Source: Lineolata rhizophorae (lineage: Eukaryota; Ascomycota; Dothideomycetes; Lineolatales; Lineolataceae). Taken from it: DNA of 38,613 nt. The DNA lies in assembly GCA_010093515.1 (NCBI GenBank), contig MU001696.1:1-38613 (forward strand), read 5' to 3'. Of the stretch, positions 3,071 to 22,243 are shown in pieces. The notes below the pieces were generated by a model, which did no database searches, had not been told where the DNA came from, and saw only the letters and a list, made by a program, of their open reading frames with translations. Position 1 is the first letter of the stretch, and every line of letters starts with the position of its first letter. Both the position numbers and the translations under genes were made by a program.

Positions 3071-5788
3071 ATGTCTCTGCCAACATTGCTCTCACCACGC
3101 GACCCTCCTCCGGCATCAATCCCCCAAGCACAGAGCGCTGAAGCCGGACCGCAGCCGTCCTTGTCCAGAGGTTCACACTCTGCGGACGAGCTGCCACGAG
3201 CAACAGAGGGCGATGTCACCGTCTCCGAAAGCAACTCGTCGCCTAAAACGGTAGAAAACACTGCCCGAGGGGCTCGGCGGCGTCTACGGTGTTCAATATG
3301 CAAGCAATCCTTTTCACGGTTAGAACATTTGACCAGGCATGAACGGTCTCGTAAGTCATTCTTGTCGCCGCCTTCGCAATTGTGAGGACTTCTAATCGGG
3401 ACTACCAGATCGCAATGAGAGGCCGTTCTCCTGCAACTATTGCGACGCTCGGTTTACGCGCAAAGACTTAATCAAGACCCACAACAAACGACACCACAAA
3501 GACGTGATGCAACCGTGGCAACGCGACAACCCCGCCCATCCTGGCGAAACATCTTCCATCTCCATTTTGGACCACAGGAGTGCTCCGCCTGACGACAGCA
3601 GCTCTAGGCGCGACGGTGCAACTGAGGGTTACGGGAATGTACACCACAACCCTGGACATGTCTCCGACTGGAACTCAGCCTTTCCCTCTTCAAACAACAT
3701 CCCGCCGGCGGAGCCTGTTATCCAGCAAAACTTGTATAATGACTGGAACATGTCCTCGCTTATGGAGCCTTGCCACTCGGCGATCGACTTTGATGGTTTC
3801 CTTGCCGAAATGGAATCGAGTCACCTATCCCACGGCCCACAAGGCAACGCACCTAACCCCGTAGGCGTCCCTGTTCTGGGCCAATTACAAACCCAGATTG
3901 ATGCTCCAATGTCCCACTCTGCAGTTCCCACACCGTCCACGCCATTTGCGCGATCTTCTCCTTCGCAACCCCCAATTCAGCCTCCGCCGCCAATTTCCCG
4001 GCAAACTTCCCTCGAAATCTCACAACCCAAGCGAGTAGAGATTGGCCGGGAACTAATGAAGGTATTCTCTTCGGCGATTTCTGCAGGAATTTTTTTTTTT
4101 GAAACATGCTGATATGTATTCTCTCTAGATGGCGCCCGAGCACAGCAAATCACTTCCATCATGTCTCGCTTTCGAAGGTTATCTCACAACTTTCTTCGAT
4201 TTGGTCCTTCCCAACATTCCTTTCATTCACACTACAACGTGGCAAGCGGAACAAGCGCATCCGTCTCTTTTACTAGCAATGGCCGCTCTGGGCGCTGCCC
4301 TATGCGGCAAAGATGATATCAGTCTTAGCCTCCACCGTGTTGCCCGGCTCTCCGTTCTAAACCATGTGAGTCGTGGATTGCGGGCCGTTGTCGTTTATTT
4401 TTTTTTCGCTAATACTCGTAAGATTAAATCGTATAATTTTGGCTCGAAAGATCAACCAACATGGGTCATTCAGTCCCTCTTCTTGTCTATGTCATTCGGA
4501 ACTTGGAGCGGAAATCTCGCTCTTGCTCAGCAAGCTTTGGCATGCCAGTCCATTCTCGCTCAGGTTTGTTTCTGGCTTTTGCCTCCGTCAAGAGTTAAGC
4601 ATATTGACTAGTATCAAGCTTGTTGGATATGTCAAGAATCCCGACGACAGCTGGGCAAAACATAAGGATGATCCAGACCTGAGCTGGGAGGAATGGGTGT
4701 CCACTGAAACAATCATTAGGTGGGTTGCCCGAGCACCGGTTCCCTCCCCCTCCGTTGTAGAGGATCTAACGGCACTAGGACAAAACTAGTTGTGTACGTC
4801 TTCTTCGGCAACCTAAATGTGGCTTGTAACGTCCCTCCTGCGTTGCTGAATTCGGAGGTGAATATATCACTTCCTTCCAGCGAATGCGAGTGGCTGGCGC
4901 CAACCCCAGAGGCGTGGATTCAAAAGCGAAAGTATCCAGAGGGACGCTCAACCTCATTTAGTGATGCACTAGAAAGTCACATGTCTCACAACGAGGATCG
5001 AGTGGTCAAGTGCAGCGCTTTCGGATCCTTGGTCATGCTCCACGCAATCCTACAACAGATATGGCATATCAGACAGCATAACCCTACTCGAAACAGTCCC
5101 GAACAGATCCTATCCTTCGAACTTGCGCTAGGGAAATGGAAGATTGCATTTGAGAACAATCCGGAATCATCACTCTCTGCAGCCAATCCTCATTTCTGGC
5201 TTGCCTTAAGCTCGCACGTTCTGCTAGCTTCCGCATACACCAGGGTGTATACGATCATTGGCCGGATCAGGCTATCGACGATCATTCATGACGCTGATGT
5301 CGTAGCTGGAGTCATGCGTACCTCCATCAAAGAAATTCCGAGGTCACCAGGCAGTGTGAATGCGGCGCTACACGCCGTTTATGCACTTTTCCTTCCCATC
5401 AGGCTCGGCAGAATCTGGACAAATCAGAGCGACTCTGGAGCTTGCAGCTTGCACCCTTACACTTTCTGTTCCATGCAGCTATGTAGGTGAGGCCTAATAT
5501 AGTACCTCACCTGTGTTGGCTAATCATATCACAGGCGTGTTTGTCAGCAACTGGCTCGAATTGCTCAATTTGACAGAGAAGTCCAGCTGGACGCACGATG
5601 AACAACAAATCGTTGCTCTTGCAGAATCGCTCACTGAAGAGGTTACTCTGAGCGCTGCGGATTCCGAAAAGCCATTGCATGTAAAGCTTTTTTATGCATG
5701 GGCGGATTTATTTAGAAGCTCGCGCGACTGGGGAATTACTCCCATTCTTAGGGATGCGATGATACAGTGCGGAGACAGTTCTAAGTGA
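3071..5788 (+). CDS. C2H2 zinc-finger transcription factor with fungal-specific regulatory domain
   Basis: Probable nuclear pathway regulator of about 789 residues. The seven exons I infer are 3071-3350, 3409-4061, 4129-4365, 4423-4563, 4619-4719, 4779-5482 and 5535-5788, with introns of 52-67 bp. Two CX2CX12HX3H fingers are visible: C74/C77/H90/H94 and C102/C105/H118/H122. The first intron splits the codon of H94. A Ser/Pro-rich linker follows. From about residue 312 comes a fungal_trans-type region (LAFEGYLTTFFD, PTWVIQSLFLSM, LNSEVNISLPSSECEWLA, RDWGITPIL near the end). The start at 3071 is the last in-frame ATG before the fingers. An in-frame ATG at 2873 would add 66 residues. The reading frame through about 5405-5482 looks unlike the family (see findings). 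The 4366-4422 and 4564-4618 introns were chosen for phase and are the least certain. Its position beside metabolic genes suggests it controls them; that is inference. Confidence 0.85.
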
Positions 5789-6763
5789 CATGAACAGCAC
5801 TCAATTCATCGACCAACTTCGGCGAGATGTACTGCTTTAGCATACCCAAAAAAAAGGTGGTGTGACACTACCGTAGCTGGTGTGCAAGGGACACTGCAGC
5901 GGCTAGCCTCGTTGCCAAATTCACGACGCAGAGATTTGGTTACGCTCCATTGGCCTATCCACGACGCTGATGCCTTTTGGTTTGGCAATCTTTAACGACA
6001 TTTACGAATCGCGATTCCTACGTCAACTAGACCAGGTCATACTACAAGGGACAGGCCAACCTGATCTCTCAATGGTACTATTAGGTCAAAAAGAATGACC
6101 ATGGGCCAGACGATTATACTGGTATTTAAATCGGTAGATTGGGTTTGGAAGATTCGATCTGGGCCAATTAGATTCATCTCTACGTTCTAATCTAGCGGCT
6201 CAGAGGTCCGAATTTTTGGTAGAGGAAAGGGGAAGGGGAAAGGAGGAAGATGGAGGGTGCGAGAGGGGAAATGCCATTAAGAGTGATATTAATGACACTA
6301 ATTCTCATCAACAACCTACTTATTGATAAATTTAGGTATGTTGTTAGTTAGGTTACGTCAATGGCTTGCGGTCACCAACTTCAGGTTTGCCTCATGGCGG
6401 AGCATCAATACTTATGACTTGACCATGATTATATGGCGAAACTGACATCTTGGTAGGTTTGATTGATATCTATCAATTTGGCTCGTCTAGATAGGTTTCC
6501 AAATCAAGTCCATGATCCGATCGATCTTATCTCTGGAAAACTTTGAAATAGCGAGCATGACAAACCTGGGGACGTTCCGATTGGTCAATGCCAACTTCAT
6601 GTCATAGTGAGCTTGTCGGACCTAGATAACGCTCTCAGGGACATACTAGAAATACTGCATACGTACGTTGGACATCGCCACTAATCAATGCTTCGCCTAT
6701 CACCTTTCATTGTCTCATCAGATATTCCGCCCCTGCCAAGCCACGAAACTGCGTGACCATCAC
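5789..6763. other. intergenic, convergent gene ends
   Basis: This lies between the regulator (+) and the hydrolase (-), which converge here. No gene is supported. A purine-rich tract lies at about 6225-6275. The stretch 6290-6500 is AT-richer, with GATAGAT/GATATC-like words. It probably holds the 3' untranslated regions of both neighbours. Confidence 0.6.
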
Positions 6764-7651
6764 TTACAGTGACGCCTTTGGCGAGTCCCCAACATTAGTG
6801 TCTTCCAAGAAGCACTGCACGAACCGATTGTACGCGGGTATATTTTGTATGAATTGAAGATGGCCAGCGCTGGGCATCTTGAGGTAGCTCGAGTTTCGAA
6901 TGAATGTGGCCATGCGGTCGTGGGTTTCTGGCGGTATCCAGTCGTCATGGTCGCCAGTGACAATCCAGACGATCGGCGCGTCCTTGCTCTCGCCCCTTAC
7001 TGGGAGATGCTTGAAGGTCTCGGCTGTCCAGATCGGCTCACGCGTCCACATCGTCATCCACGCGCCCAGGAAATCGTCCCAGGACTGTCGCGGGTGTGTT
7101 TCCTCCCACTCCTTTTGCGCGCGCGCGAAGAACTCCCCGACCATGGGAATGCCCATCACCCTCTCCGCATCGGCGTTCCTGTAATCGTCCAGCGCCGAAT
7201 AGAGAAATGCGCGTTCCACCCGATCGTGGTGACCATACGCCAGCAAGGACCAGCCCATCATAGTCCCTTCTGACCAAGACACGATCGAAACCTTGGGTAT
7301 CGACAACGCGTCGAGGAAACCCGCGATGTCGCCAGCAACCTTCGGGTAAGTGAGCTCTCTGTCGTCGAACGGAGATCGGCCATGGCCCGGGAGGTCGAGC
7401 ACGATGACGGTATAATCTTTTTCTAAGAACTCCACCTGCGGGGCGTTCCATTCGGAGCTGCTAACGCCGCCGTGGAGCAGCAGGACCGGCGCTTTGCCCG
7501 CTCGCAGACTTCGCTCAAGGGGCACGCCGAAGATGGCATGCCACAACCTGACACCGCGTGCGTTCTTCACCAGCCCTTGCTGCAGCGCCTTGGACAGGTC
7601 CAGCTTTGGGGTAGGCGGAAAGACGAGCCATGGGAGGACTTCTTTCGGCAT
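6764..7651 (-). CDS. alpha/beta hydrolase
   Basis: Single-exon gene of 295 residues. The fold is clear: an oxyanion segment LLLHGG (H60), a strand/turn LDLPGHGRS (about 85-93), the nucleophile elbow SWSEG with S127, an acid in TGDHDDWIP (D236 or D237) and a catalytic histidine in SAGHLQF (H264). These form the Ser-Asp-His triad of alpha/beta hydrolases acting on esters, lactones or C-C bonds. The substrate cannot be read from sequence. I chose the ATG at 7651; the frame is open a little upstream but without an ATG. There is no signal peptide, so the enzyme is probably cytosolic. The stop codon overlaps a perfect splice-donor word (GTAAGT), but no good downstream exon was found. It is transcribed in the same direction as FMO1, and a tandem GATGGGG array lies about 240-360 bp upstream of its start. 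Confidence 0.9.
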   Translation of the reverse strand: MPKEVLPWLVFPPTPKLDLSKALQQGLVKNARGVRLWHAIFGVPLERSLRAGKAPVLLLHGGVSSSEWNAPQVEFLEKDYTVIVLDLPGHGRSPFDDRELTYPKVAGDIAGFLDALSIPKVSIVSWSEGTMMGWSLLAYGHHDRVERAFLYSALDDYRNADAERVMGIPMVGEFFARAQKEWEETHPRQSWDDFLGAWMTMWTREPIWTAETFKHLPVRGESKDAPIVWIVTGDHDDWIPPETHDRMATFIRNSSYLKMPSAGHLQFIQNIPAYNRFVQCFLEDTNVGDSPKASL

Positions 7652-9085
7652 GTTGGCTGGCAAGCAGATGCGAATTAAGGAACTAGTCAACTTCCACCAG
7701 GTCCAAACCAGGTCCAAAATAAAAACAAAAAAAACAAAAGGTTTGATTAAACTCTAGGGCGCAGTGGTCCTTGGAGTCGAGGCCTCGAGGTCGACCTATA
7801 ACGTACAGAGTCATCCTTTTCATTTCCAAAGTCATGTGGGTGGTAGTCGCATTCCGCTCTAGAACCGATCCCTAGTGACGGCTAATGCCGATGGGGCCGG
7901 ACAAGACCGATGGGGTTTGACAGGGCCGATGGGGTTGGGCAGGGGTTAACTGGGTTCGACAAGGGTCGGTGGGGTTGATGGGGTTGGACAGATTCGATGG
8001 GGTCGATGGGGGATCGCCGGACGCGCAGCGGGCGCTATGCCTGATACGGCAAAAATGGCTTCCGAATCCCGGTCGCGGTGGCCAAGTCCCCTGTGCAACT
8101 TTTTCTCCACTCACTAGGTACAGTGCGGAGTACATCGTTGGTGGATTTGACAAAATGCTCTTCCCATGTGAACTTGGTGGATCTTAGCGGGGAAATCCCC
8201 TCACGCACTTTGTGGGGCCTTTCCTGTATTGATGTGGGGTCGAGGTTCTGGATCGGCTTCATTTGCAGATCTGGTTGCTGGCGGCTTTTTCAAATGGAAT
8301 AGAAAATTCGTGAAAAAAAAGAAAAAATGGGAAAGGAAATTCCTCTATTGTGTTTCTAAAGTTTAGTCTCTAGTTAGGCTAGCTAGCATAGCTCGGGAGC
8401 GCAACCATTGCCGTCGACTGTTCAGGGAGCTGTAGTTCAATCTTTTCAAAATCACGTCTCTCACATTGCAGAGTGCAATTTCCTCAATTCATTGCTTCAA
8501 TTGAGCCATATGAAGACGTGTAGATGAGCGGAAAAAAATGATTGTGGACTCTCAAAGCTGCTGTAGCCCAGGTTGATTTGGTCTTGGAGTTGCGGGACAC
8601 TTCTGTTCTGCTGTGTGGCGGGGAGATAGTTCCTTCAGTATACTTGCGCCTCCTGAGATTATCACATGTTGCAAGATGGAGGAACTATCCTGTAAAACAT
8701 CTTAGGCATGTGCGAGCGAAGAAAACCAATTGCAGTTGTCTAACATACAGAAATCTCAATTTGTACATTGTTGTTCGCCCAACTGTAGGCCATTGTAGCA
8801 GAAAGGCGCGGCAGTAAGTAGTCTATGAGCTCGTCTAATTCCATTCCAGAGATTTGAAATGTTGTGACTCGAAAGCTTCTCACCTTCCACGTTCGCATCG
8901 TTACTGATGCTTCATACACACTTGGGAATTAACGCATTGAGAATAACGAACTATTTAATTTCCGCTCGTCAGCCTTTAAAGCCGGCCTTTATAAATAAAT
9001 TGAACCTCCCGCCTGCCACTTCTGTGTCCGAAATAAGACTCCATGGACCGAGGTATAACAGTTGGCAATGACACTGGACCGACAT
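7652..9085. other. intergenic / upstream region of the hydrolase gene
   Basis: No supported gene. Contents: an A-rich tract (about 7715-7742), the GATGGGG minisatellite (7888-8011), an A-rich tract near 8310-8340 and some short open frames without recognisable domains (for example 8035-8262 on the minus strand). The right part is the 3' side of FMO1. Confidence 0.6.
7888..8011. repeat. 19-bp imperfect minisatellite containing GATGGGG
   Basis: Three clean 19-bp units start at 7888, 7907 and 7926 (consensus CCGATGGGGNNNGRCARGR). They are followed by more degenerate copies to about 8011. The exact word GATGGGG occurs six times, at 7890, 7909, 7928, 7977, 7996 and 8005. The array sits about 237-360 bp upstream of the hydrolase start codon, so it may be regulatory or a simple repeat expansion. 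Confidence 0.8.
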
Positions 9086-10623
9086 CTAGAGCTTCGCTTG
9101 CAGGGAGGCATTCCCGTTGAACAACTTCTTTGCGTCTTCATCCTTGAAGTCGTTGATCCGATGGTTCACTTCCGGCGGGGGTACATTGGTTGCAATGTAC
9201 TCCGAGCCAGTTTCGATGGCCTCCGCAGCGATGTCAAACTCCTCGTATGCGTATTTTTGTGGGCTATGGGAAAACAGCCAGCCTGGAATTGGCATCGACA
9301 CGGTTTCAGGCTGTCGCTTGACAAGGTCCCAATCCGTTTTGTGCCAGATGTCTCGCGTTTCAAGCCCCATTCGCTGAGCCAAGGAAGCTCGGGCATGTCT
9401 AAATAAAGACGTTAGTGTGAGTTAAAAAACAAACGACTTGACGAGAATAGGTTTGCGCCACTTGCTCACCTCAGCTTTTCGCACACTTGCAGTCCTAGCG
9501 GCACCCTCTGCTTTCCGGCCAATTCCAAACAGACGGCAATTGTCGCACCGTCTTCAATTGCCTGACCAGCCCCTTGACCAGATGTGGGAACGAAGGGGTG
9601 CGCGGCATCGCCAAGGACAATCATTCGGTGGTGTTTTGATGTCCAGGTGGGAAGCGCATCTCGCCAAGCTAGTTTATGATCGAAAATCTGATCTGAAGGG
9701 GTATACTTAATGACTTCATGGATCCTTGAATCCCAACCTTTTGTGTAGTTGAGAGCATCTTCAACTTTCCCCGGTTGTGTCCATGACTCGTTCACGTCAA
9801 ATGTGTCTTTGTGAGTGACCGTCCACATGACGATCTTCTTTTGAGAGCACGTTCCGTAAATGGCATGCATGTTGGGCCCGATAAAAGTTTCCATTTTGTC
9901 GTGATCGCCTTCCAGGAGGAATTGAAGCTTTGGATTGTCCTTGATCAGGTCCGCGTTATACCAAGCCCGAAAAGCGGCGTATCCCGTGGGATACGGGCGA
10001 TCCTTCAAGCCAGTAATAGTGCCGCGCGCCTTTGAATGTACTCCATCGCAAGCAAGGATGCAGTCGGCAGTGATTTTGCGGCCATTGGCAATGATGCCTG
10101 CCTCGTTCTCGTTTTCGAAGACGTCGGTTACACGGACGCCGAAGTGAATTGGAATTCCAAGCGTTCGACAGTAATCCGCAAACAATCTCATCAGTAACGG
10201 TCGCGGGGCGAGGTAGCCGGAGTAGCTGGTATAGCCATCCATAGGCTGACGGAAGAGGACCTCGCCGCTATCGTGTCTGTGGATGACGTTCACGACGTAT
10301 TGGCCAGCGTGGGGTATAATTTGCTCTTGGATTCTGCCATTGTCCCATCCCGCAACAACCTGCGCCGCGTTCGGGGAAAGCCCGATCATATCGCCTACAT
10401 TTAATGTCAGTCAAGAGCTAGATTTGTTGCTGTCACTTGGAGTCTAACCCAACGTTGATACATCAGCGTTCTGCTCGTAGATTACAACCTGGTGCCCTTT
10501 TCGGTGGCACTCTATCGCTGCCACGGCGCCAGCGTAACCTAGGCCAATGATTATGACCTTGATTCCGCTGGAGCCCGGATAGGCTTTGCCCTGAGGCCCG
10601 CTCCCTTTCGTTGTAGTCTTCAT
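9086..10623 (-). CDS. FAD-dependent monooxygenase (group A, salicylate hydroxylase-like), FMO1
   Basis: Flavoprotein aromatic hydroxylase-type enzyme of 470 residues. Exons on the minus strand are 10623-10449, 10394-9470 and 9398-9086, with introns of 54 and 71 bp. The FAD Rossmann motif GLGYAG is at residues 27-32, with E50 ending the second strand (ribose binding). The DG motif CDGVHS (D175-G176) contacts FAD and NADPH in this class. The GD motif LGDAAHP (G320-D321) precedes a typical [13 protein letters not shown] stretch. Such enzymes hydroxylate aromatic or other small substrates with NAD(P)H and O2; the true substrate is unknown. The first exon supplies only the first strand of the FAD fold. 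The gene shares its promoter region with the divergent MFS transporter and is a paralogue of the gene at 18776-20410, sharing two intron positions. Confidence 0.93.
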
Positions 10624-11492: not shown

Positions 11493-13133
11493 ATGGCAAC
11501 TGAACGACCCTCGAAAGACGAGGCGGCTTCGCCCGTGAAGCCAGAGCAGAAGAGCTCGGAGCACATTGAAATGGTCCCCGTCGCTGGATCAGACGCCGGT
11601 CAGGACGATGTGAAGCTGGCGAGAGGCTCTTGGTATCACTACAAGAAGGATGTCATCGTCTCTGTTATCATCATGTTTTCGGCCTTTGAGTATGGTCTGG
11701 ATATCGGCATGGTCTCGGGCTTTCAGGCCATGGCGGGGTTTTTGGAGGTCTTTGGCTATGAGGACCCTACTCAGCCCGGCGGCTACGGCCTCAAGACCAT
11801 CGTGCAAACGCTCATGACCAGCCTCATGGTTATGGGTGGTTTCCTCGGTGCCTTCGCTGCCGGAGCCATCATGGATTTCCTTGGCCGTCGGTCTGGCCTC
11901 TGGGTAGGGAGCGGTCTCACCTTGCTCGGTGCCATCTTGCAGATGACCGTCACCTCGTATGCCGGGCTTTACGTCTGCCGCATCATCCTGGGCCTAGGGA
12001 ACGGCGTCTTGCTCGTGTCGGGTCAGGTCTTCATGCAGGAAGTTGCCAACCCCCAGCTCCGGACAGCCAGCTTTGGCACGAACCAGTTCTGGATGGCCTT
12101 CGGTCAGCTGATAGGAGCTATCATCAACAACGCCACAAAGACGCACGCCGGGCGCTCCGCCTATCAGACCCCCATGGGCATCCTCTGTGTGATGCCGGTT
12201 CTCATGTCCGTCGCCCTGATATTCATTCCCGAGACGCCACGATACCTCCAAATGCGCGGGAAACACGAGGCTGCTCGGAGGTCCCTGCGCTGGCACCGTG
12301 ACCGCTTCGTCAGCGACGCGGAAGTGGAAGCCGAGTATTCCGAAATCGCCCATCCCGTCGAATCTGAGCGCGACGCAGCTGGCAAATCTAACGCCTTGGA
12401 GATCTTCCACCCCCGGAACCTCAAGCGTACGCTCACGAGTATGGGCCTTGTTCTGTTTCCTGCTGCCACCGGGGTCTCATTTATGGGTACATACGGCGTC
12501 TACTTCTTCGAGGTTTCCGGAAGCAGCGATCCCTTTGTCGACGGTGTCATTGTCTTGGCCTGCAACCTGGCCGGTGCCATCTGCACCATCGCCGTCGGCC
12601 GGCGAATGAGGAAGAGGATTAGCCTTCTTGTTGCTGCGGCGGTGCAGGCTCTCTGCATGCTGGGAATGGGTGTCTCATACGTTGTCCATGGCCTAAGCCC
12701 CTTTAGCGGCAGAGTCATTCTCTCGATGGCGTGTATTTTCTGCTATATCTCGACTTTCATTTCGATTCCTTTCTCCTGGCAGATTGGAAGCGAGATTCCC
12801 AACCCACGGTTCCGAGCTCCTACGTATGGGATTGGCACGGGCGTTGCCTTCGTCGTTGGTTGGGCCCAGGCCTACTCTCTCCCTTACTTTATCAACACGA
12901 CCGCGCTCAACTGGGGAGGCAAAGTGGGGTTCCTCTTCCTCGCAGGTAACGTGGTCGTCGTGGGCTTCGTCTTTTTGTGTGTACCCGAGACCAAGGGACG
13001 CACTCTGGAGGAGATTAATGAATGCTACGTGCTCCGGGTGCCAGTCAGGAAGTGGGATTCGTATGAAGCCCAGGGTGCGAAGAACGCCCGACGCGAAGGT
13101 TTTGAACGCGGCCTTAAAGATCAGGGAAAATAG
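11493..13133 (+). CDS. MFS sugar-porter-family transporter
   Basis: Intronless gene for a 546-residue integral membrane protein of the major facilitator superfamily. A hydrophilic N-terminus (about 55 residues) precedes a set of hydrophobic segments consistent with 12 TM helices. Family signatures are GAIMDFLGRRSG in the TM2-3 loop, CRIILGLGNG, PETPRYL after TM6 and the C-terminal PETKGRTLEEI. These are typical of the fungal sugar/quinate/glucoside-type porters at the plasma membrane. The conserved glutamine-containing TM7 motif of hexose carriers is absent (residues 321-327 read LFPAATG), so the cargo may not be a simple hexose. I took the first ATG in frame; the frame is open upstream only through a non-ATG codon. 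Divergent from FMO1, it could import the substrate of, or export a product from, the neighbouring enzymes. Confidence 0.92.
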   Translation: MATERPSKDEAASPVKPEQKSSEHIEMVPVAGSDAGQDDVKLARGSWYHYKKDVIVSVIIMFSAFEYGLDIGMVSGFQAMAGFLEVFGYEDPTQPGGYGLKTIVQTLMTSLMVMGGFLGAFAAGAIMDFLGRRSGLWVGSGLTLLGAILQMTVTSYAGLYVCRIILGLGNGVLLVSGQVFMQEVANPQLRTASFGTNQFWMAFGQLIGAIINNATKTHAGRSAYQTPMGILCVMPVLMSVALIFIPETPRYLQMRGKHEAARRSLRWHRDRFVSDAEVEAEYSEIAHPVESERDAAGKSNALEIFHPRNLKRTLTSMGLVLFPAATGVSFMGTYGVYFFEVSGSSDPFVDGVIVLACNLAGAICTIAVGRRMRKRISLLVAAAVQALCMLGMGVSYVVHGLSPFSGRVILSMACIFCYISTFISIPFSWQIGSEIPNPRFRAPTYGIGTGVAFVVGWAQAYSLPYFINTTALNWGGKVGFLFLAGNVVVVGFVFLCVPETKGRTLEEINECYVLRVPVRKWDSYEAQGAKNARREGFERGLKDQGK

Positions 13134-15733
13134 GCGGGACGACATGAGAATTCGTATCCGGAGGTTCTTAGTTGGGCAAACACGCTGAAGAAATTGTTGG
13201 GAACGGGAAGAGGTGTTGTGAGCTAGCAACTCTAGGAATGTTCGACTTTAAAGCAGGTGTACATGAGAATAAATGACCTGATGAGCTCTTATGCTTCTGT
13301 TCCACTTCAAGACTGACGGATATCCGTGAAAGATTCCACCCATTGCCAGCCACTGGTTATTCTATCACCACCGCATTTCTTGTTTGAGCCTTTCTTTCCC
13401 TCATCTTTAGCCCCACCAAATGCAACTGCAGCTCAATCGCGATGAGAATATGCCTCTTATTTTGGTCGCTATCACTCGCTGTGATTCGAGCTTTCGGATT
13501 GCTCGGAGGAACCCTTCAACTTCCTCTGAGAATCTTCAAATGTATTGCGAGGATTGGCTTGTGGGTTCAACCCAAAAGATGATAAATGCCGAAGGATGTG
13601 AGGTAACTTGATCTTCTCGTCATGCATGGGCAAGGTGGGAGTCTTAAGCCGGAGAGCGTTCGTTGGTGGAGGCCGCCAATTGCACAAATGAATGTAACAA
13701 TGGTAATCTCTCCTGTGCTCGTTTCCGTTATCATGATGGACTGTCCCATTGCCCCATATAAATGTTGGGCGTCGAGTGGTAATTCTCTCTAGCAAGTCAC
13801 ACAGAGGGGCGGAGACCGAGCCCTGGTCCCATCGATATGCTTACCCTGTAGTTGTCGGTACCGAGTGTTTGGCTCGTTCTGAAGGATTTCTCCCTTGGCG
13901 TCAGATCTAGTCAGGAGCCATTGGAGGTCATGCAGAACAATCTGCTCGGCGCCCGCATAATGATCCGTTGCCCATAAACGAGCCAACGATGCATTAGAAG
14001 CGATGCGGCTATTTGGATCGTTCATATCTCAAGGCAGGCAACTTGAAGCAGCACGTACATCTTGGCGAGGAGGCGAGCCTTTTCTGTACAGATTCGGCCA
14101 CGGTGACTGATCCGAACGCCCAGAACCTTGTATTTCACTGTGACATGCACCAGGGCTTTCTCAAAAGGGTCTATTCGTTTTCTATTCGCTTCTAACGGAC
14201 GACATTAGGCGAAAACGGACAACAACTTATACAGTAGCGACCTCTATCGGCGTCTGAAGGCTTAGGGGGCCTGAGAATGTAAATCGTAAGCCGTATCAGT
14301 GCTCTGGCGGTTCTAGCTAGCCCATGAAATTGCCATGACTTCAAGTATGCTGCCCGTGCCAGTGCTTACTATTTAGAGATCTCTCGCAGCTTAGGAGGCT
14401 TGGTGAAGTTCCATCTAGTTTAGTGGAACAGGACGACAGCTCTGGTGCTGGAAAATGTGTTTGAAAATGTTATGTTGGAGAAGCATTTTGCTGCTATCCA
14501 CTGTTATTGGAAGACGCCTTCACGAGAAACAATTATTCATTTCTAATCTTTGGCATGATTTGGGAGCTCTCTCAAAGCAATCAACTTCAATCGGCCTGTG
14601 GAAGGCCATAGCGAAACATTAAAGCAGTACTAAGTAGCTAGCTCGAGCCAAAGGAGACTTTACTTTGAATTTAGGTGCCCCAGCTGCCGCTGATTACCCT
14701 TTCTTCCCTTGAAGGACCACAGCTTATGGTGTTCACGAAATCATCCTCTCGTCTACTCACGCACGAGAGACGCCTATCCACGCTAGCTAGTTAACGCTAG
14801 CGTCGACCTAATTAGTGGATGTGTCTATCCAATAAGAGTGGATACGTTTCGCGTGCCTTGCATTCAGGCGTTCCCCATTGCCAAACACAACAGAATCCAT
14901 CTTTCCCAGACAAGATCCTCCAACACGACTACCGCGTACCCCGCAGAGTGGATTCCAGCGTCCCAGCTCCACGGAACGCGTGTTCTAGTGGCATGAGTCT
15001 TGCGGGGTGCGGAGAACTGCATTAGTCTCCACGTACTTCTCCAGGAATTCGGGACGCTAGGTGTGGCGGGATGGTTAGAAGCGCCGCCACGACGATCCTT
15101 GCTTTCCGCTGGGGTCGGGCGCAAACCCCATCGCAGACCCCATCACAACCCCACCGAGACGGTCCCCCCAGCAAAAGGACTCCGCCAACCGGTTTGAATT
15201 TTGGAGTACTAGGCATGGGCTTGGAGACGATTGAAAGAGCCTTTGAAGAGTGAGCTAGCTGGAGTGAGCGCTTTCAACACGAAACGTGCCTTGCTAAGTC
15301 AAGCGTGGTTGGATCTCTAGGCCCAAGGGCTAGGGGCTAGGGATAGAGCTAGCTGCCCAGGTTACCTTTTCTAGGAGCGTTCAAAATCTTGTCTCCCCGA
15401 TGCCACAGATATTGTTCCCAAGGCAGATAGCAAGTCAGCCTACTAGACGTTTGTCAGAGTCGAATTTTGGTGTTCAAGTTCGCATTTAGCGTCTCTGTTG
15501 ACGGACGAGCCATATCGTCTGTATATATATCGGTTAGGCAAAACAGCTACTACGTAGTAAGGGCTACTAAATTGGGAGCAGTCGTTTTCGAGTCTCAGAA
15601 GCCAAGCTGACCTCCTTCTCCAGAACTCCATGTTCTGATGGTCCCATGTGCATTGGAAAGAATCGAGAAAGGATCACGTTATACGAACCGGCAGTATTTG
15701 TGTGATCAAACTTTAGTCTCGCGTACAAATGGT
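13134..15733. other. long intergenic region, possible gene remnant near 13790-14190
   Basis: About 2.6 kb between convergent genes. No family is recognised. The minus strand at about 14190-13790 reads open in pieces: an ATG frame from 14025 beginning MNDPNSRIASNASLARLW ends close to a donor-like GGTAAGC near 13845. This could be part of an unrecognised or decayed gene. An 8-bp-arm inverted repeat lies at 14780-14803. At 15126-15144 two CCCCATC words mirror the GATGGGG repeats found elsewhere. The remainder shows nothing I can support. Confidence 0.45.
14780..14803. repeat. perfect inverted repeat (8-bp arms, 8-bp spacer)
   Basis: The arms ACGCTAGC (14780-14787) and GCTAGCGT (14796-14803) are exact reverse complements around an 8-bp spacer. 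It lies in the gene-poor region and could be a protein-binding site or chance. Confidence 0.6.
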
Positions 15734-16454
15734 CTAGATCGTAGGTTTGCCAGTGGTGCCTGTTTGGCAAGTCAAATCGCCAACTGCAGTGTTCAAGTCG
15801 ACCGGAAACGAAACGTGCTCGTGAATCCATTTCCACTTGCCATCCACCTTCCTCAGCAAGCTGGTCATTCGATATGTGAAGGAAAACTCTCGTCCATCAG
15901 TGCCGGTGCCCCAAAATCTCTGGATGAGAGTTGCGTATCCGGTTACTTTGGAGGTTGCCACGATCTCCAGGTCTTTACAGGCGAGATGCGAGTCGTCGTA
16001 GTACGGATCGACGCTGTCGAAATGTGCGCCGAATTTCGGACGAGGGATCTGGGTCGAGAAATCGAAGAAGATGACGTCTGGAAGGTCGTAAAATTCCTTC
16101 CCTTTGGTCCTGTTGGTCCCGAACTCGTTGTGGTTGAAGCGGAGCCATTCCTTGTAATGCTGGAGTATCTCGTCCTCTTCTTGGACAAGCTCGGGATCAT
16201 GATGCTGGCGGACCACGGTTCCAAATTAGCTCCTTAACTCGGCTGTATCCATAGCCTCCTCTTTCGCCTTCTCTTGAACCATCGAGGCAAATGGGGTCCG
16301 GCTGCAGTCACTTACACGGCTCAACGGCATCCCCAACTTTTCTCGCAACGCTTTGACCGTAGTGAGGTTTGTCTGCGATTTCAAGGTGAGGCTTTGGACC
16401 TTAAAAGATTAAGGTCTGCGCACTCACCTCGTCCATCCATTGCGATTCGGCCAT
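15734..16454 (-). CDS. SnoaL-like (NTF2-fold) small protein
   Basis: Predicted 184-residue protein. Exons on the minus strand are 16454-16428 (9 codons), 16372-16316 (19 codons) and 16204-15734, all joined in phase 0; introns are 55 and 111 bp. The main exon has the look of SnoaL/ketosteroid-isomerase-like cone-fold proteins: an acidic helix-like start (HHDPELVQEEDEILQHYKEW), IFFDFSTQ, repeated beta-strand segments and the conserved ending YRMTSLLRKVDGKWKWIHEHVS, where the 'DGKWKWIHEH' strand is typical. Such proteins act as cyclases, isomerases or dehydratases, or only bind ligands. The main exon has no ATG of its own at a fitting place, which is why I sought the two small upstream exons (starting MAESQWMDE). 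It stands in tandem with the NmrA-like gene. The family call is fairly firm; the reaction is unknown. Confidence 0.75.
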
Positions 16455-16961
16455 TATCGTGATATTTTCGTCCCTGTAGAATGTGATGATAGGGCTGAAG
16501 TAAAGTCTTCTGCGGAAACTGTTCGCTTGCAAAATATGTTGGCCAAAGTATATGCGTATGGGCTTCGGGAAGTGGAAAATATTTATTTGTTCGCAGATGC
16601 GCCTTCCCAGGCCCACAGCTGTCGTTGGACCGAAAACACAAGCTCCACCCCGCACTTCCACATGCGACCGTCATTGATGGTGGGGCACATGAAGCAGGGT
16701 CCTGGGGCGGGGTCACACCCCAAGGGAGCCTGAAACGTCAGGGCGGCATTACATGGAATATATCTGCAGATTTCGTGTGCCTCCATCGCTGCTCTGCAAC
16801 ACGCCACGAACGCCTACGTACGTCTGGGAGCCATGCTAGTCACGCCAACGTCCCCCCCGCCGCTTTACAAACCTCGATATACGTGTTTTCCTAAAATGAC
16901 CCTTTTTTATCCTCTAAATACATGGGGAGCTATCCATTGCTCTTTGACACAATCATAAAAT
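16455..16961. promoter_or_regulatory. upstream region of the SnoaL-like gene
   Basis: About 500 bp between the SnoaL-like start and the end of the NmrA-like gene, both on the minus strand. G-rich words (GGTGGGG near 16678, GGGGCGGGGTC near 16703) lie about 230-260 bp upstream of the SnoaL-like start. No gene is supported here. Confidence 0.45.
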
Positions 16962-18104
16962 TCAAGCATTCAACACAGGTGACCAATCTTGCCCCTTGAT
17001 CCATCCTTCCACAGTTCCTAGCCTTGGTGGAAATTTAAGCTGGAGAAGAGTCAACGTCAGCTCGGATCTGTTAAGAATCTTGGTTGAAGATCCGACTTAC
17101 CTCGGAGGGCTGCGTCAGCTCCTCATGTAGCTTGTAACCAAACTCTGTGAGGTTAGCCATGCCTTTCGCCAGCATCTCCCTCACATCAGGAGCCATGTCG
17201 CCGGGCATAGCGTCTAAGATGTCGTTGATAGGGAGAGTGGTTATCTTCGCTTCAACATTAAGGACTCTGCCCCACGTGTCGACGAACTTGCCCACTGTCA
17301 TCCACTCTCGATAGCCCATGAGCTTGGTGCCAGGCGGTTCTTTCAATAGCGCTGCCACAAGCGGCCCGGTGTCTTCGTCAGTAGCAATCAGGGGAAGCGG
17401 CGTCTCGGCGTGGAACTGAGTGACAAAATTGAATGACCCGTCTGCTTCCTGCGTAAACAACTTTAGTTACAGCCTGAGAGTCTTATGGGCATGCAAAATA
17501 CGCCAAGAACATTTTCGGATATGCCTACCTTCTTCGGCATCTCGGAAGGCAGCTCTTTAAAATTCGACAAGTAAACGCCAACTTGGATTGTGCTCGTCTT
17601 TCCGTATAAGTCGGGATACGTGTTCTTCCCGTACATCTCCGCGTGGGCCTTTGTATCAGCGTGATAGGCGCCGACGTACTTCCCATTGCTAGCCTCTGCC
17701 ACGTCCTGAATAGTCGAAAAGATCAAGCGGTCCAAAGTGCCAATCGAGGCCGCCGCATCGAATATGTTCCTGCCCTGCTGCAGCTCGTACTCGTACGCCC
17801 ACCGCGCGAGCCGGCCCGGCTCGGCCGTCCTCGTGAGCTCCGGGTCCGCGAGCGGCTTCCAGAAGTCGGTGACCCCGAAGACGACAGCCGCGCCTTGGAA
17901 GGCGCGGCGCAGAGAGTCGGCGTCGTTGAGGTCGGCCGCCACCATCTCCACGCCCCGAGCGGACAGCTCCCGGGCCTTGCTCGAGTCCGCGTCGCGCGTT
18001 ATGCCCCGCAGCCTCCACTCGGGATCGCGCAGGAACGAATTCACGACGGAGCCTCCCTGGGTGCCGGTGGCGCCGATCACCACGAGCAGCTTCGCTTCGC
18101 CCAT
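16962..18104 (-). CDS. NmrA-like family NAD(P)-binding protein
   Basis: Predicted 333-residue protein. Exons on the minus strand are 18104-17529, 17448-17101 and 17039-16962; introns are 80 and 61 bp. The N-terminal Rossmann motif GATGTQGGSVV (from residue 11) and an Arg after the second strand (GITRDAD) suggest NADP(H) binding. The pattern FSTIQDVAEASNGKY...HADTKAHAEMY is the usual NmrA-like core. The short last exon gives the common family ending TVEGWIKGQDWSPVL, which supports this splice model over the shorter frame that stops just inside intron 2. Members are either redox-sensing regulators (NmrA) or atypical SDR reductases acting on small molecules. Within this block an enzyme role in the pathway is plausible but not shown. 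It is divergent from FMO2. Confidence 0.9.
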
Positions 18105-18775
18105 GAGTGCTGCCGCGCGAACGAGACGGGCCGCGAATCTTGCACGTGTCCGATCTGGATCTCGGCCGTCGAGGAAGCGCGAATGCAAAGCTGGCTATGT
18201 GTCTGGTGCGATCATTTAGACATGGCACTATGAGTCGGTACGTGACGATGAGCGACGCCGACGCCCAGTCGAATTATGCCAGCCCAGGGCGACGCGGCAT
18301 TGATTCCTAAAGTGGGGCATCGCATGGCTAGGCTCGTCGGGATGGATGGCGGGCGTGCCCGGCGTGAGGGATTGACGATGGACTGGCCGGCCGTCAAACA
18401 GTGGCTGACAAGGCCGTCGGTTCACCCCACCACCACCTGTCACATGTCACATGTCGATGGGGTCGCGTCCCCCCCACATCGACCTGCTAGTTGCTCTCCG
18501 CTTCAGCGTCACCGAAGTTACCCCTCACGATTCCGGACACCGTTGCTCTGATGCCCGTGACCATGCCCTGCCTCCAATGCATGTGGCATACCAGCTCCGC
18601 GTCGGGGCCGACCCGCCATGCATCCCCAGACCCGTTAGGTCCGGCCGACGAGGTCTAGCCCGGTATTAGTCGGGTGTACGTTAAAGAGCCTCTCCGACGC
18701 CGTTGCATGTTGACTGCTCTTGTTTATTTTTCGTCGTCGCCAGTAGATAGCGTTTTGCCCCTCGATCTGATCGCA
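18105..18775. promoter_or_regulatory. divergent promoter between NmrA-like gene and FMO2
   Basis: About 670 bp between two divergent start codons. It contains the tandem CACATGT repeat (18441-18447 and 18448-18454), followed at once by a GATGGGG word (18456-18462). That word is the core of the array at 7888-8011. A shared control site for the pathway is possible but unproven. Confidence 0.55.
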
Positions 18776-20410
18776 ATGAGCAACCTCGAAGGCGTCAGCG
18801 TGATTGTGGTGGGCGCCGGTTTCGGCGGTCTTACTGCCGCCATCGAGCTGCGGAGAAAGGGAGCGACTGTGCAGGTGTTTGAGAGCACCAAGCAGCTCAC
18901 CGAGCAAGGTCTGTCAATGCTTTGTTTGTCCGCCACCGCCCATCTATGGCTTGTTAGTAGTGGTGGTGGTGGTGGTGGTGGTGGTGCTCCTGGCCGACGA
19001 TGACCCGCTAACTGCCGCTCCGCGCAGGCGACACCATTCAACTCGCGTCAAATGCGACCAAAACGGTGGCGAAATGGGGAGACGTGCTGCAGAAAATTGC
19101 CGAGGACTCGGCGAGGCCTCGTTCGCTGGAGTGCCAGAATTCGCAAGGGCAATTGCTCTACAACCAGCCGCTGCCTCTTGATTTCGACGGCTTTCCGGTC
19201 CTCTATCCGAGCCGGGGCAAGGCGCACAAGGCCATCTACGACCACGCCGCGTCGATAGGGGTCCAATTTCGATTCGGAACGCGCGTGACGGGCTTTTTTG
19301 AAACCGAGACCCAGGCGGGTGTTGAGATTGGCAACGAGAGAGTCGTGGCCGATGCCGTCATAGCGGCGAACGGAGTCCACAGCAAAGCGAGGGCCCTAGT
19401 CGCAGGGTCACCCCAAAACCCTAGTTCGAGCGGCTTTGCGGCCTATCGATGCTGGTTCCCGGTCGAAGCGCTGAATCGGGACGATCCATTTTTGGACGAA
19501 ATCATCAACGCGAAGGAGGATCGGTATTGGGTTTGGATTGGTCCGGATGTGCATGCGCTCGTCATGACCAACATCAAAATGCAATGGTTGGCATGTTTCT
19601 GCACCCATAAGGTACGAACGAGGTCCTCATATACTCTCCGACGTCGCCTGTGGCTACGCGCGGCGCTGGAAGGCTTGTTGACGAACAGTCGTCTAGGATA
19701 TATACACCGCGGCGGAGTCGTGGAGCTCTCCAGGTAAAAAGGAGGACCTGCTCAAGGTGGTCGACGGCTGGGATGAAAGGCTGAGAGCCGTCTTCAACAG
19801 CATCCCGCCCGAAAAGCTGATTGACTGGAAATTGCTATGGCGAGACCCCCTCTCACGCTGGCTCTCGCAGCATGGCAGGATTGCTCTCCTAGGCGACGCC
19901 GCGCATCCCCACCTTCCGAGCTCTGGTCAAGGTGCGGCTCAAGCGATCGAGGATGGCGCCACGATGGGAGCTACGCTTGATAGGGCCGGAAAGGACGTGC
20001 CGCTTGGGTTCCGCGCCTACGAAAAGATACGGTAAGAACCTTCGATTGCCATTTGTCAATCGTCCAGATTCCATGTGATGTGACGAATGAATCGCTAACT
20101 CCAAGATTCTAGTTACTGGCGCACAAATTTGACTCAGCGCATGGGTTGGGAGTTACGTCACCTTTGGCACAACACAGACTGGGAAAAGGTGAAGCAAGAC
20201 CCAAAGGTTCTTGAATTTAGACAGCCGTACTGGCTTTTCGGCGCGGATCCTGAGGGTTACGCGTACGAGGCGTATGATGAAGTTGTGGATTGCCTGAAGA
20301 ACAAGAAGGAGTTCATCCCGAAGAATGTCCCTCAAGGCTATCGACACGAGGAGTGGACCATGGAGGATATGCTTAAACAAGATGGCACCAAATTCGTAGT
20401 GTATGATTGA
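18776..20410 (+). CDS. FAD-dependent monooxygenase (group A), FMO2
   Basis: Predicted 449-residue paralogue of FMO1. The four exons are 18776-18908, 19028-19611, 19697-20031 and 20113-20410; introns are 119, 85 and 81 bp. The FAD motif GAGFGG is at residues 13-18, with E36 closing strand 2. GD motif LGDAAHP (G305-D306) precedes SGQGAAQAIEDGA. The usual DG motif reads AANGVHS, with Asn159 in place of Asp. The C-terminal region QRMGWELRHLWHNTDWEKVK closely matches FMO1. The middle intron (after HK239) is absent from FMO1, while the first and last introns sit at the same codons and phases in both genes. The first intron uses a weak donor (GTCTGT) and carries a GGT microsatellite. The chosen acceptors restore alignment with FMO1. 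Reaction class: NAD(P)H-dependent hydroxylation; the substrate is unknown. Confidence 0.92.
18955..18986 (+). repeat. (TGG)n microsatellite inside FMO2 intron 1
   Basis: About nine uninterrupted TGG triplets (18961-18986) follow a TAGTAG run. They lie within the first intron, so length change would not alter the protein unless splicing is affected. Confidence 0.85.
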
Positions 20411-21118
20411 GCGGTGCGGAGTCGATCTTCCAAGACCTCTTCCAACATTGTATGGAGCTTCTCGCAGGCGTTCTCACGCCAGTCGTATCTGTGAACACGG
20501 TATTCTCATATTGTCGCCCTGAAGTATTCAAAACTGTATTAGCCTGAACATCTTCATTCTTGGAGCATTTCAGAGAGCGAGAACTCGCAAACCGAGAACT
20601 CTGTTGCTCTCGGCTTCGATGCCTCCCAAGCTACCCGTCGGGAGTGCCTAAAGACCGATAAAGTGGTGACCCTGGAACTTACAGAACCAGCCAAAGCTAA
20701 GTGCTGTGTGGTAGCGCGGTCTTTAGCGTAGCACGAAGACCGAACGGAGGTCACAGACGGTGCAGAAGCGTGAAAAAGCGACTGGTTCGGAAATGTACAT
20801 TATGATGCGTTGTCTGCGGGCACGCCTATCTACAGGACAGCTCTAATCGTATTTTCCAACCATCAACCATCTAGAACCATGCCACGTGGGCCTCGACATG
20901 ATTCCAATTCAACCCCGTCCTGCCATGGCACCGGGCGTAGAACCGGGGCCTAACTCGTGTCAATTTTTTTTTTTTAAAAAAAAAGATCTCTCCCGGCGGT
21001 AGTAAACTGCAGCAGCCCCACCCCGTGCCGGAGGTTGATTAATCCGTGGCCTCTAAAATATTCCAAGAATCGCGGATTTTGCCATCGATCAAGGCACAAA
21101 GCGACCGCCCCCGGCCCA
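20411..21118. other. intergenic, convergent gene ends
   Basis: The 3' flanks of FMO2 (+) and the alcohol dehydrogenase (-). No gene is supported. A T12A9 run (20964-20984) is a self-complementary homopolymer pair that could mark a terminator or poly(A)-related zone. Confidence 0.6.
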
Positions 21119-22243
21119 TCATTCCTCGACGGAGAGGTCAAGGACCAACTTGCCCGCCGCGCCCTCGTGGTAGTCCTTGACCAGCTCGTTCAGGCGGGAG
21201 AAGGGATAGGTGCGCGTCTCGGCCCTGACGGAATGGGCGACGCAAAAGTCGAGCATCTCTCGCATGGCCACGTTGGACCCGATCAGGCTGCCCTCGATGC
21301 GCAGGCGGCGGAAGACGACGTCGTAGGCGGAGAGGCGGAAGCCGGCCTCGGGGAAGGAGACGAGGACGAGGAGGCCGCCGTCCTTGAGCAGGGCGGCGGC
21401 GTAGTCGAACGCCGCCTGGCTCTCGGGCAGCACCAGGACGGCGTCCAGGCCCATGGCCGGCGCGTCCTCGGCCCCGTCCTCGGCCCCGACCGCCGCCCGC
21501 ACGTCCTCGGCGCGCTGCTCCGACGCGTCCACCACGGCCGCCGCCGTCCCCAGCCCGCGCGCCAGCGCCAGGCCCCGCGCCGACACGTCGACGCCCACCA
21601 CCTTGAGCCCCATCTTGGCGGCGAACTGGAGGCCCAGGTGGCCGAGGCCGCCGCCGCAGCCGACGACGCCGAGGCGGGCGCCGGGCGCGAGGCGGCAGCG
21701 GCGCAGCGCGGCCCAGACGGTGAGGCCGGCGCACATGAGGGGGGCGGCGTCGCGGGCGGACAGGGCGGGGGGGATGGGCTCGGCCTGGCGGGCGTCGACG
21801 AGGGCGAACTCCTGGAAGCCGCCGGGGCGGCTGAGCCCGAGGCCGGACGAGCGCGGGCAGTAGGCCGAGAAGCCCGGGGCGTCCGGGTCGGGCCCCGACG
21901 GGCGGCGGCACTCGGCGCAGCGGCCGCAGGCGTGGTAGCCGCGCCCGGACACGGCGACCCGGTCCCCGACCTGGAAGCGCGGGCGCGGGTTCTGCGGCGC
22001 GACGGCGGCGACGGTGCCGGCGAACTCGTGGCAGCCGACGTGCGGGAACGAGGGCGGGAACGGCCGCATCGAGCCGGACGCGAGCACGGCGTCGGTGTGG
22101 CAGTACGACGCCGCATCGACGCGGACGAGGACGTCGTCCGGATGGGTGATGGCGGGGACGGGGATCTCGCGGAGGACGTAGTCGGTGTTGTACTGCTCGA
22201 GCAGATGCGCTCTCATCGATTGCGGGAGAGAGGTGGACGGCAT
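21119..22243 (-). CDS. zinc-dependent alcohol dehydrogenase (MDR family)
   Basis: Intronless, very GC-rich gene for a 374-residue medium-chain dehydrogenase. Catalytic zinc ligands are visible as C48 (SYCHTD), H72-E73 (GCHEFAG) and C171 (PLMCAG). The structural zinc cysteines are C106, C109, C112 and C129, with a longer than usual gap before the last. The cofactor site VVGCGGGLGHLG (from 194) and the acid in VVGVDV (D219) at the end of the second strand suggest NAD rather than NADP. The ending matches the class I-type ADH fold. It would interconvert an alcohol and an aldehyde or ketone in the cytosol. I chose the ATG at 22243, giving a normal-length protein. The frame stays open far upstream only because of high GC. 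It is the last gene of the metabolic block before the housekeeping genes. Confidence 0.93.
   Translation of the reverse strand: MPSTSLPQSMRAHLLEQYNTDYVLREIPVPAITHPDDVLVRVDAASYCHTDAVLASGSMRPFPPSFPHVGCHEFAGTVAAVAPQNPRPRFQVGDRVAVSGRGYHACGRCAECRRPSGPDPDAPGFSAYCPRSSGLGLSRPGGFQEFALVDARQAEPIPPALSARDAAPLMCAGLTVWAALRRCRLAPGARLGVVGCGGGLGHLGLQFAAKMGLKVVGVDVSARGLALARGLGTAAAVVDASEQRAEDVRAAVGAEDGAEDAPAMGLDAVLVLPESQAAFDYAAALLKDGGLLVLVSFPEAGFRLSAYDVVFRRLRIEGSLIGSNVAMREMLDFCVAHSVRAETRTYPFSRLNELVKDYHEGAAGKLVLDLSVEE

Follow-up and report, generated by a model that had tools for sequence, protein, structure and literature searches.

Backbone-free clusters for the degradation or detoxification of aromatic compounds are, as a general kind, already known in filamentous ascomycetes, and a 2018 ISME J paper is said to be the founding survey of fungal degradative gene clusters. 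Among those considered here is FVEG_08287-08296 of Fusarium verticillioides, which we take to be FDB1. Statements on published systems below refer to excerpts of the papers cited. The Fusarium cluster is induced by benzoxazolinone and includes NmrA-like, FAD-binding and fungal transcription factor genes (PMC10512309); other fungal degradative gene clusters have a pterocarpan hydroxylase, salicylate hydroxylase or vanillyl-alcohol oxidase core (PMC10735191). The hxn nicotinate cluster of Aspergillus nidulans has a C2H2 regulator, HxnR, which is an exception in its class, whose members mostly act broadly (PMC5746545). The fungal 3-hydroxyanthranilate catabolic cluster occurs as two similar copies in some aspergilli (PMC7842363).

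Here we describe a group of linked genes that, on balance, we read as a backbone-free cluster degrading or detoxifying an aromatic (phenolic or indolic) compound, present in two diverged copies and with a looser relative on a third contig, C1.

Gene content of the locus

The window, that is the whole stretch of 38,613 nucleotides of Lineolata rhizophorae DNA that was analysed, lies at the left end of C27, a contig of 462 kb in a 31-Mb genome. Gene models were built by in-frame splicing and gave, with the flanks and promoters, the following map.

1 to 2860, no strand: end of the contig, lacking open frames of 150 codons or longer
1 to 96: repeated segment
About 2413 to 2561: dispersed repeat of ~145 bp
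3071 to 5788, + strand: g1, two-finger C2H2 and Fungal_trans regulator, 7 exons, 789 aa
6764 to 7651, - strand: g2, alpha/beta hydrolase, single exon, 295 aa
7904 to 8010, + strand: array of GATGGGGT-like boxes upstream of g2
9086 to 10623, - strand: g3 (FMO-A), group A FAD monooxygenase, 470 aa
10624 to 11492, no strand: divergent promoter g3/g4, from the gene models
11493 to 13133, + strand: g4, MFS transporter of probable sugar-porter type, 546 aa
15734 to 16454, - strand: g5, SnoaL_3 (NTF2-like) protein, 184 aa
17071 to 18104, - strand: g6, NmrA-family NAD(P)-binding protein, about 317 aa, 3' end uncertain
18105 to 18775, no strand: divergent promoter g6/g7, from the gene models
18776 to 20410, + strand: g7 (FMO-B), group A FAD monooxygenase, 449 aa
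21119 to 22243, - strand: g8, zinc alcohol dehydrogenase, 374 aa (match 21122 to 22243, stop codon added)
23640 to 37279, no strand: right flank of apparent core genes, comprising a Tem1/Spg1-like GTPase (assigned by eye alone), a WD40 protein, an 864-aa frame unmatched in Pfam and a kinesin

All eight genes passed the Pfam gathering cut-off (score/cut-off: g1, Fungal_trans 60.2/23 and zf-C2H2 29/25.2; g2, Abhydrolase_1 69.3/25.8; g3 and g7, FAD_binding_3 60.2 and 75.2, cut-off 22; g4, Sugar_tr 251.2/22.3; g5, SnoaL_3 30.9/22; g6, NmrA 126.5/27; g8, ADH_N 73/23.5). The original prediction had placed eight genes of these families here, with two divergent promoters, and the spliced models and domain scores bear it out on both counts. 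Two open models were obtained for g1, of which the better-spliced one was chosen, four for g5 and several for g6. A frame shift in g1 was rejected, because the intron at 4564–4618 keeps the frame open.

The apparent core genes on the right mark the right border of the block. On the left, 2.9 kb without a long frame and with dispersed repeats could suggest that the contig ends in the remains of a cluster that is decaying or silent; however, all eight frames are open, their introns are GT-AG and the Asp and two Arg residues of the flavin monooxygenases (FMOs) are conserved, and we regard decay or silencing as very improbable.

A genome search found no ketosynthase (KS), condensation or DMATS match on C27, on C3, the contig that carries the second copy, or within 90 kb of any contig end, and Pfam revealed no terpene synthase among the eight modelled genes. 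The claim that the window lacks PKS, NRPS and DMATS genes was therefore correct. Such a gene is what identifies a backbone-driven secondary-metabolite cluster, and none was found on C27 or C3; in the genome as a whole, a single DMATS match was located on C2 and a single NRPS locus on C10. Because of these negative results, the proposal that the genes form the tailoring arm of a cluster extending to the left appears unlikely, the more so as the C3 copy, which is contig-internal, is likewise without a KS, condensation or DMATS match.

Related loci and the extent of the unit

A rearranged second copy of four window genes (SnoaL, NmrA and both FMOs) lies at 1,416–1,429 kb of C3. The SnoaL protein encoded there, the single other relative of g5 found in the genome, is 71% identical to it; identities are 61–68% for the NmrA protein, 57–65% by piece (60% overall) for FMO-A and 65–76% by piece (74% overall) for FMO-B. 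Thus four of the eight genes have close partners in this copy, and g4 has a clade-mate at its edge, a sugar porter 34% identical to it. Under random placement, the chance that the best other relatives of NmrA and FMO-A both come to lie no more than 20 kb from the SnoaL relative is about 2e-6. The rearranged copy supports the view that the core genes are a genuine accessory unit, one that includes no PKS, NRPS or DMATS gene.

In the FMO tree, where C1_b and C25 enter as partial sequences and C1_a includes intron residue, the proteins form one-to-one pairs, g3 with C3_A (support 100/99) and g7 with C3_B (100/100), indicating that both FMOs have been kept in both copies; the comparison of g7 covered nine genomic regions, mostly picked from the g3 search. 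A group on C1 contains, within 26 kb, two FMOs, a porter, a P450, an SDR-like gene scoring below its own Pfam cut-off and a vanillyl-alcohol oxidase gene (match E 1.8e-129), and is a looser sister of the window and C3 clusters.

The C3 copy, annotated in part, further carries aldehyde dehydrogenase, O-methyltransferase, SDR and Fungal_trans genes, the last being different from g1. The regulator g1, the hydrolase g2 and the dehydrogenase g8 had no match in the C3 region, which counts against our main reading and would suit an arrangement in which the unit consists solely of the four-gene core, the porter included or not, and g1, g2 and g8 are all bystanders; this arrangement is compatible with either reading of the core. 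In its favour too, g2 has no other match in the genome, GC3 is 0.97 in g8 as compared with 0.54–0.75 in g1–g7, and the closest relative of g8 (56%) lies on C30. Nevertheless, GC3 is alike across g1–g7, a GGGGT box array precedes g2, and the C30 relative of g8 is itself in a catabolic-looking group, near CMD and hydroxyisobutyrate-dehydrogenase-like genes. We think it rather unlikely that all three genes are bystanders, while g8 alone is reasonably likely to be one and probably belongs to the flank, outside the unit. Eight genes is too wide for the predicted block, whose core consists of four enzymes and, probably, a porter.

The GATGGGGT-like array upstream of g2 could possibly, on an exploratory view, be what is left of a minisatellite or a set of sites for a regulator. 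Of the 15 promoters of both blocks, 11 contain the word CCCCGAC and seven contain ACCCCGAC (50 crude shuffles gave at most 9 and 6, respectively), in exploratory counts where overlapping promoters of divergent pairs enter twice and the words were chosen on the same data. GGGGT is found at 4.5–10.8 per kb in the promoters of g1, g2, g3/g4, g5 and g6/g7, at 3.3 in that of g8, at 2.5 in block coding sequence and at 0–3.5 in the four C3 promoters checked. Over the whole block it averages 2.44 per kb, no more than in the right flank (2.51). The shared promoter words were not used as evidence.

Breakdown or biosynthesis

Both FMOs have the same three nearest solved relatives. CtdE is closest to g3, followed by PhqK (6pvf) and the MAK1-like protein 7cp6; the closest to g7 is 7cp6. 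A MAK1 core of a degradative cluster is defined by a bitscore of at least 50, 30% identity and 50–150% of the length, with at most six intervening genes and action on pterocarpans or other phenylpropanoids; with 7cp6 as stand-in for MAK1, phmmer aligned the greater part of each FMO, at 288.9 and 295.1 bits, and g3 and g7 are 8 kb apart with three modelled genes between them (6.5 kb for the C3 pair). The ‘MAK1-like’ label may mislead, because AbMak1, loss of which changed melanin, was judged non-orthologous to MAK1. The conserved Asp and two Arg of PhqK/CtdE-type group A flavin monooxygenases, a type defined also by indole 2,3-epoxidation, are present in both proteins, the equivalents of CtdE D60/R122/R200 in the alignments being D60, R123 and R201 in g3 and D46, R107 and R185 in g7. 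The roles of these residues are described for CtdE, and both CtdE and PhqK are biosynthetic indole oxygenases (PMC8260726).

Judged by its sequence, g4 is a transporter of the sugar-porter kind, although its TIGR00879 score (222.1 bits) falls slightly below the cut-off of 237.8. The porters of C27, C3, C1 and C28 form one clade against those of C12 and C15 (support 100/98); those on C1 and C3 have MAK1-like FMOs no more than 11 kb away, and g4 would be a member of the cluster. The idea that the C1 and C3 porters are the sole close relatives of g4 was rejected, the C28 porter falling in the same clade. The C1 porter is most closely related to the product of this three-piece gene (61%), yet a search with g3 found no FMO match on C28, which weakens the link between porter and FMO, slightly lowering the degradative reading and slightly raising a biosynthetic one.

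For g2 a likely triad, Ser127/Asp234/His264, was assigned by motif. A limited search with six patterns found no relative of g2 in bacterial and archaeal genomes, and its fold prediction (mean pLDDT 35.4) was not used for fold search. The suggestion of a lactone-type substrate finds no support beyond a weak similarity of g2 to TIGR02427 (68.9 bits, cut-off 255.85). A profile search of the PDB with the SnoaL pair gave weak matches alone, the best being an NTF2-like protein (E 0.026), and two peptide patterns, in a limited search, found no relative in bacterial and archaeal genomes; the fold prediction for the g5 exon (mean pLDDT 49.8) was likewise left out of fold search. The NmrA protein g6 matches CtdP (E 3.9e-18), which we take to be a protein of the ctd cluster, presumably the same citrinadin cluster that encodes CtdE.

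These relatives suit a biosynthetic or tailoring module, in which the FMOs, NmrA and SnoaL proteins would oxidise and rearrange an indole or other product whose backbone gene lies elsewhere in the genome, as the DMATS match on C2 and the NRPS locus on C10 would allow; the O-methyltransferase of the C3 copy points the same way. Set against this are the absence of KS, condensation and DMATS matches from C27, C3 and the 90 kb next to contig ends, the sugar-porter family of the C27, C3 and C1 transporters, and the vanillyl-alcohol oxidase gene bordering the C1 group. We consider such a module doubtful.

Of the two readings originally offered, the one in which an aromatic compound is broken down or detoxified fares better and gives the most likely direction, on circumstantial support: the sugar-porter transporter, the C1 locus beside a vanillyl-alcohol oxidase gene and the benzoxazolinone-induced precedent (PMC10512309). 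This direction is contested, because the closest solved relatives of the FMOs include biosynthetic indole oxygenases and because no match to such an FMO was found near the C28 porter. Also counting against degradation are the match of g6 to CtdP, the exceptional position of HxnR among C2H2 factors (PMC5746545), and the finding that the genes annotated in the two copies, C3 in part, include no ring-cleavage dioxygenase.

We infer a substrate class, an order of steps and a mode of regulation as follows. In the degradative reading, the sugar-porter type transporter would import the compound, one MAK1/CtdE-type FMO would hydroxylate or epoxidise, and so dearomatise, the ring, and the second would oxygenate a later intermediate. 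The NmrA protein may be an NAD(P)H reductase or a redox-sensing partner, and the SnoaL protein may carry out isomerisation, dehydration or decarboxylation. The hydrolase of the window copy would then cut an ester, lactone or beta-diketone bond, with aldehyde dehydrogenase and O-methyltransferase taking its place in the C3 copy, and g1 would be the local activator.

A bolder proposal, which we hold to be unlikely, is that the SnoaL-NmrA-FMO-FMO core and its sugar-type porter form an undescribed catabolic module, in substrate-specialised copies, by which an aromatic ring is opened with no ring-cleavage dioxygenase taking part. If so, two successive flavin oxygenations, NmrA reduction and SnoaL rearrangement would ready the ring for the hydrolase in the window or the aldehyde dehydrogenase on C3, and the copies would share a fixed core but have swapped the regulator, the porter and the finishing enzymes.

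The occurrence of the four-enzyme core in two diverged copies with differing regulators and finishing enzymes suggests selection for the module. The pair invites comparison, the common part representing core chemistry and the differences pointing to substrate choice. Backbone-free metabolic clusters are easily missed in synthase-based genome mining, and, if breakdown is confirmed, the set of fungal aromatic pathways defined at gene level would gain a route based on flavin oxygenases.

Comparison with described clusters

In the open-licence literature we found no title describing the SnoaL-NmrA-two-FMO combination. The ctd citrinadin cluster of Penicillium citrinum supplies CtdE, the closest solved relative of g3, but has two NRPSs and two prenyltransferases, of which none was found at the window cluster (PMC8260726). 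The hxn cluster, like ours, includes a C2H2 regulator, g1 being likened to HxnR by C2H2 class alone; its enzymes differ and include a molybdenum-cofactor hydroxylase (PMC5746545). Likened by gene families, the FVEG_08287-08296 cluster likewise brings NmrA-like, FAD-binding and transcription factor genes together, with no backbone gene in the table of that report, whereas its metallo-beta-lactamase and amidases are absent from the window (PMC10512309). The SnoaL, NmrA and two-FMO core does not appear in the excerpt on pterocarpan hydroxylase, salicylate hydroxylase and vanillyl-alcohol oxidase clusters; nevertheless, as in those clusters, an oxygenase, a transporter, a regulator and accessory enzymes are linked without a backbone synthase, the FMOs are MAK1-like and the C1 group holds a vanillyl-alcohol oxidase (PMC10735191).

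Gene models and borders of the block

Models for all eight genes were built by in-frame splicing; all are intact, and each of the eight products passes its Pfam gathering score.

Genes of the block in the window (models from in-frame splicing)
3071-5788, plus strand: g1, C2H2/Fungal_trans regulator
6764-7651, minus strand: g2, alpha/beta hydrolase
9086-10623, minus strand: g3, group A FAD monooxygenase (FMO-A)
11493-13133, plus strand: g4, transporter
15734-16454, minus strand: g5, SnoaL-like protein
17071-18104, minus strand: g6, NmrA-like protein
18776-20410, plus strand: g7, group A FAD monooxygenase (FMO-B)
21119-22243, minus strand: g8, zinc ADH

Together with the divergent pairs g3/g4 and g6/g7, these models bear out the eight genes and two divergent promoters of the original prediction. 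The right border is sharp, because the block is flanked there by a Tem1/Spg1-like GTPase (recognized by eye only) and, beyond it, a WD40 protein and a kinesin. An AT-rich stretch at 28200-29900 separates the WD40 gene from an 864-aa minus-strand frame that has no Pfam match. The left end of the window is the end of contig C27 (461,870 bases, in a genome of 30.97 Mb in 48 contigs). The left 2.9 kb contains no frame of 150 codons and holds dispersed repeats; one of ∼145 bases at 2413-2561, probably a short mobile element, accounts for 37 of the 39 non-self matches among those listed (78–92% identity). Positions 1-96 recur at C1:1,948,202 (98% over 60 bases) and C3:286,155 (85%), and this repeat may be where the contig breaks. 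Upstream of g2, a degenerate array of GATGGGGT-like boxes occupies 7904-8010; the g3/g4, g5 and g6/g7 promoters are likewise rich in GGGGT.

The related block on contig C3

The unity of the block was tested inside its own genome by searching for second copies of the window genes. A search with the SnoaL gene g5 brought up a single further such gene, on C3 (71% identity), and the sole strong relative of g6 is also there (65 and 68% over two pieces), with a weak one on C17. Among 27 matches to g3, including the window's own, the best relative again lies on C3 (60, 60 and 56% over three pieces), as does the gene nearest to g7 when compared with nine fetched regions (65–76% over three pieces). These four relatives span ∼10.2 kb; with randomly placed best relatives, the probability that those of NmrA and FMO-A would both lie no more than 20 kb from the SnoaL gene is p ∼2e-6. 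Their order is changed, to SnoaL, FMO-B, NmrA, FMO-A; a sugar porter 34% identical to g4 lies on their outer flank. A tree of seven FMO rows joins g3 to one C3 enzyme (100/99) and g7 to the other (100/100), with identities of 60% and 74% within these pairs and 37–40% between them. This one-to-one pairing indicates that the FMOs diverged before the blocks did, and that both were retained in both blocks.

No match to g1, g2 or g8 was found in the C3 region, which, as far as it is annotated, instead carries a different Fungal_trans gene, an aldehyde dehydrogenase, an O-methyltransferase and a short-chain dehydrogenase. The predicted unit is thus supported for g3, g5, g6 and g7, which we take as the core, rather than for all eight genes. 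The regulator, hydrolase and porter are likely members of the window copy; the genome search gave no other match to g2. The ADH gene g8 (GC3 of 0.97, against 0.54–0.75 for g1–g7) is a probable neighbour of the block; its nearest relative (56% identity) is a C30 gene with CMD and hydroxyisobutyrate-dehydrogenase-like genes in its vicinity. That region, C30:132,363-143,394, is another, catabolic-looking group, in which CMD, the g8 relative and two hydroxyisobutyrate-dehydrogenase-like genes (one tested by Pfam, the other judged by eye) lie close together, along with a metallo-beta-lactamase-fold match that is weak and falls short of its cut-offs.

The porter clade and the C1 group

The 36 genome matches to g4 are headed by C1:1,546 kb (36%) and C3:1,416 kb (34%), then C12 (28%); the search split one C28 gene into three pieces (32–42%). 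Porter trees took C12 and C15 as outgroup sequences and were made with and without C28; in the one with C28, g4 and the C3, C1 and C28 porters form one clade (100/98), in which g4 branches first and C28 is nearest C1.

Related loci elsewhere in the genome
C28:238,639-239,996: sugar porter of the g4 clade, 61% to the C1 porter
C1:1,536,410-1,562,115: C1 group, two MAK1-like FMOs, sugar porter, P450, SDR-like gene, vanillyl-alcohol oxidase (VAO)

MAK1-like FMO genes lie within 11 kb of both the C3 and C1 porters, and neighbour three of the four clade members tested. The exception is C28, a contig with no g3-type FMO match among the g3 genome-search matches listed. That g4 belongs to the unit is likely but not proven.

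The C1 group, whose VAO match is strong (1.8e-129) and whose SDR-like gene falls below the Pfam cut-off, is a candidate separate aromatic-degradation group. It is a looser relative of the block, because its FMOs pair with neither g3 nor g7 in the tree and region comparison gave no SnoaL or NmrA match. Elsewhere, C5:1,350,390-1,357,572 holds three FAD_binding_3 matches within 8 kb.

Breakdown or synthesis

Genome-wide searches found six ketosynthase matches (on C5, C6, C10, C14 and C24), six condensation-domain matches (all on C10) and one DMATS match (on C2), with none on C27 or C3, upholding the predicted absence of PKS, NRPS and DMATS genes from the block. The suggestion that it is the tailoring arm of a cluster extending leftward fares poorly in the assembled DNA: the match nearest any contig end is at C10:94 kb, so that no assembled contig supplies the other half of a PKS, NRPS or DMATS cluster for the lost left flank. 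Nor is there a gene of these three kinds at the C3 copy, where the DNA on either side is visible.

Among solved structures, g3 and g7 best match CtdE, PhqK (6pvf) and the MAK1-like 7cp6, and both keep the Asp and two Arg described as lining the CtdE active site (PMC8260726). CtdE and PhqK are described there as indole epoxidases, and MAK1 as hydroxylating the pterocarpan maackiain (PMC8120277). Enzymes of this type would, we infer, dearomatise electron-rich rings. For the NmrA protein g6 the top match is NMRAL1/HSCARG, and CtdP is matched at 3.9e-18; g6 may thus be either an enzyme or a redox sensor. Proteins with a SnoaL fold include isomerases, hydratases, cyclases and decarboxylases. The hydrolase g2 has an apparent Ser-Asp-His triad; among curated families it comes closest to 3-oxoadipate enol-lactonase, with a score well short of the cut-off, and we therefore claim no substrate for it. 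The order in which these enzymes would act in the pathway is one that we infer.

We lean, by a little, towards a breakdown or detoxification module, as originally predicted for an aromatic compound; the sugar-porter type of the transporter and the VAO gene neighbouring the C1 group argue for it. A biosynthetic module, which we consider rather improbable, would accord with the part that CtdE and PhqK play in biosynthesis, the match of g6 to CtdP and the O-methyltransferase in the C3 copy; a further warning is that loss of the MAK1-like protein AbMak1 altered melanin. The C28 porter, with no FMO link, is neutral or against breakdown, as is the description of C2H2 factors as mostly broad regulators (PMC5746545). 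In favour of breakdown, the same source describes a C2H2 regulator, as g1 is, in the catabolic hxn cluster, and the NmrA, FAD and transcription factor content is shared with a benzoxazolinone-induced cluster, as described in PMC10512309. Degradative clusters built on a pterocarpan hydroxylase (MAK1), salicylate hydroxylase or vanillyl-alcohol oxidase core form a recognised fungal class in the account of PMC10735191; among the papers listed by literature searches for the gene combination, none was seen to describe a SnoaL-NmrA-FMO-FMO core.
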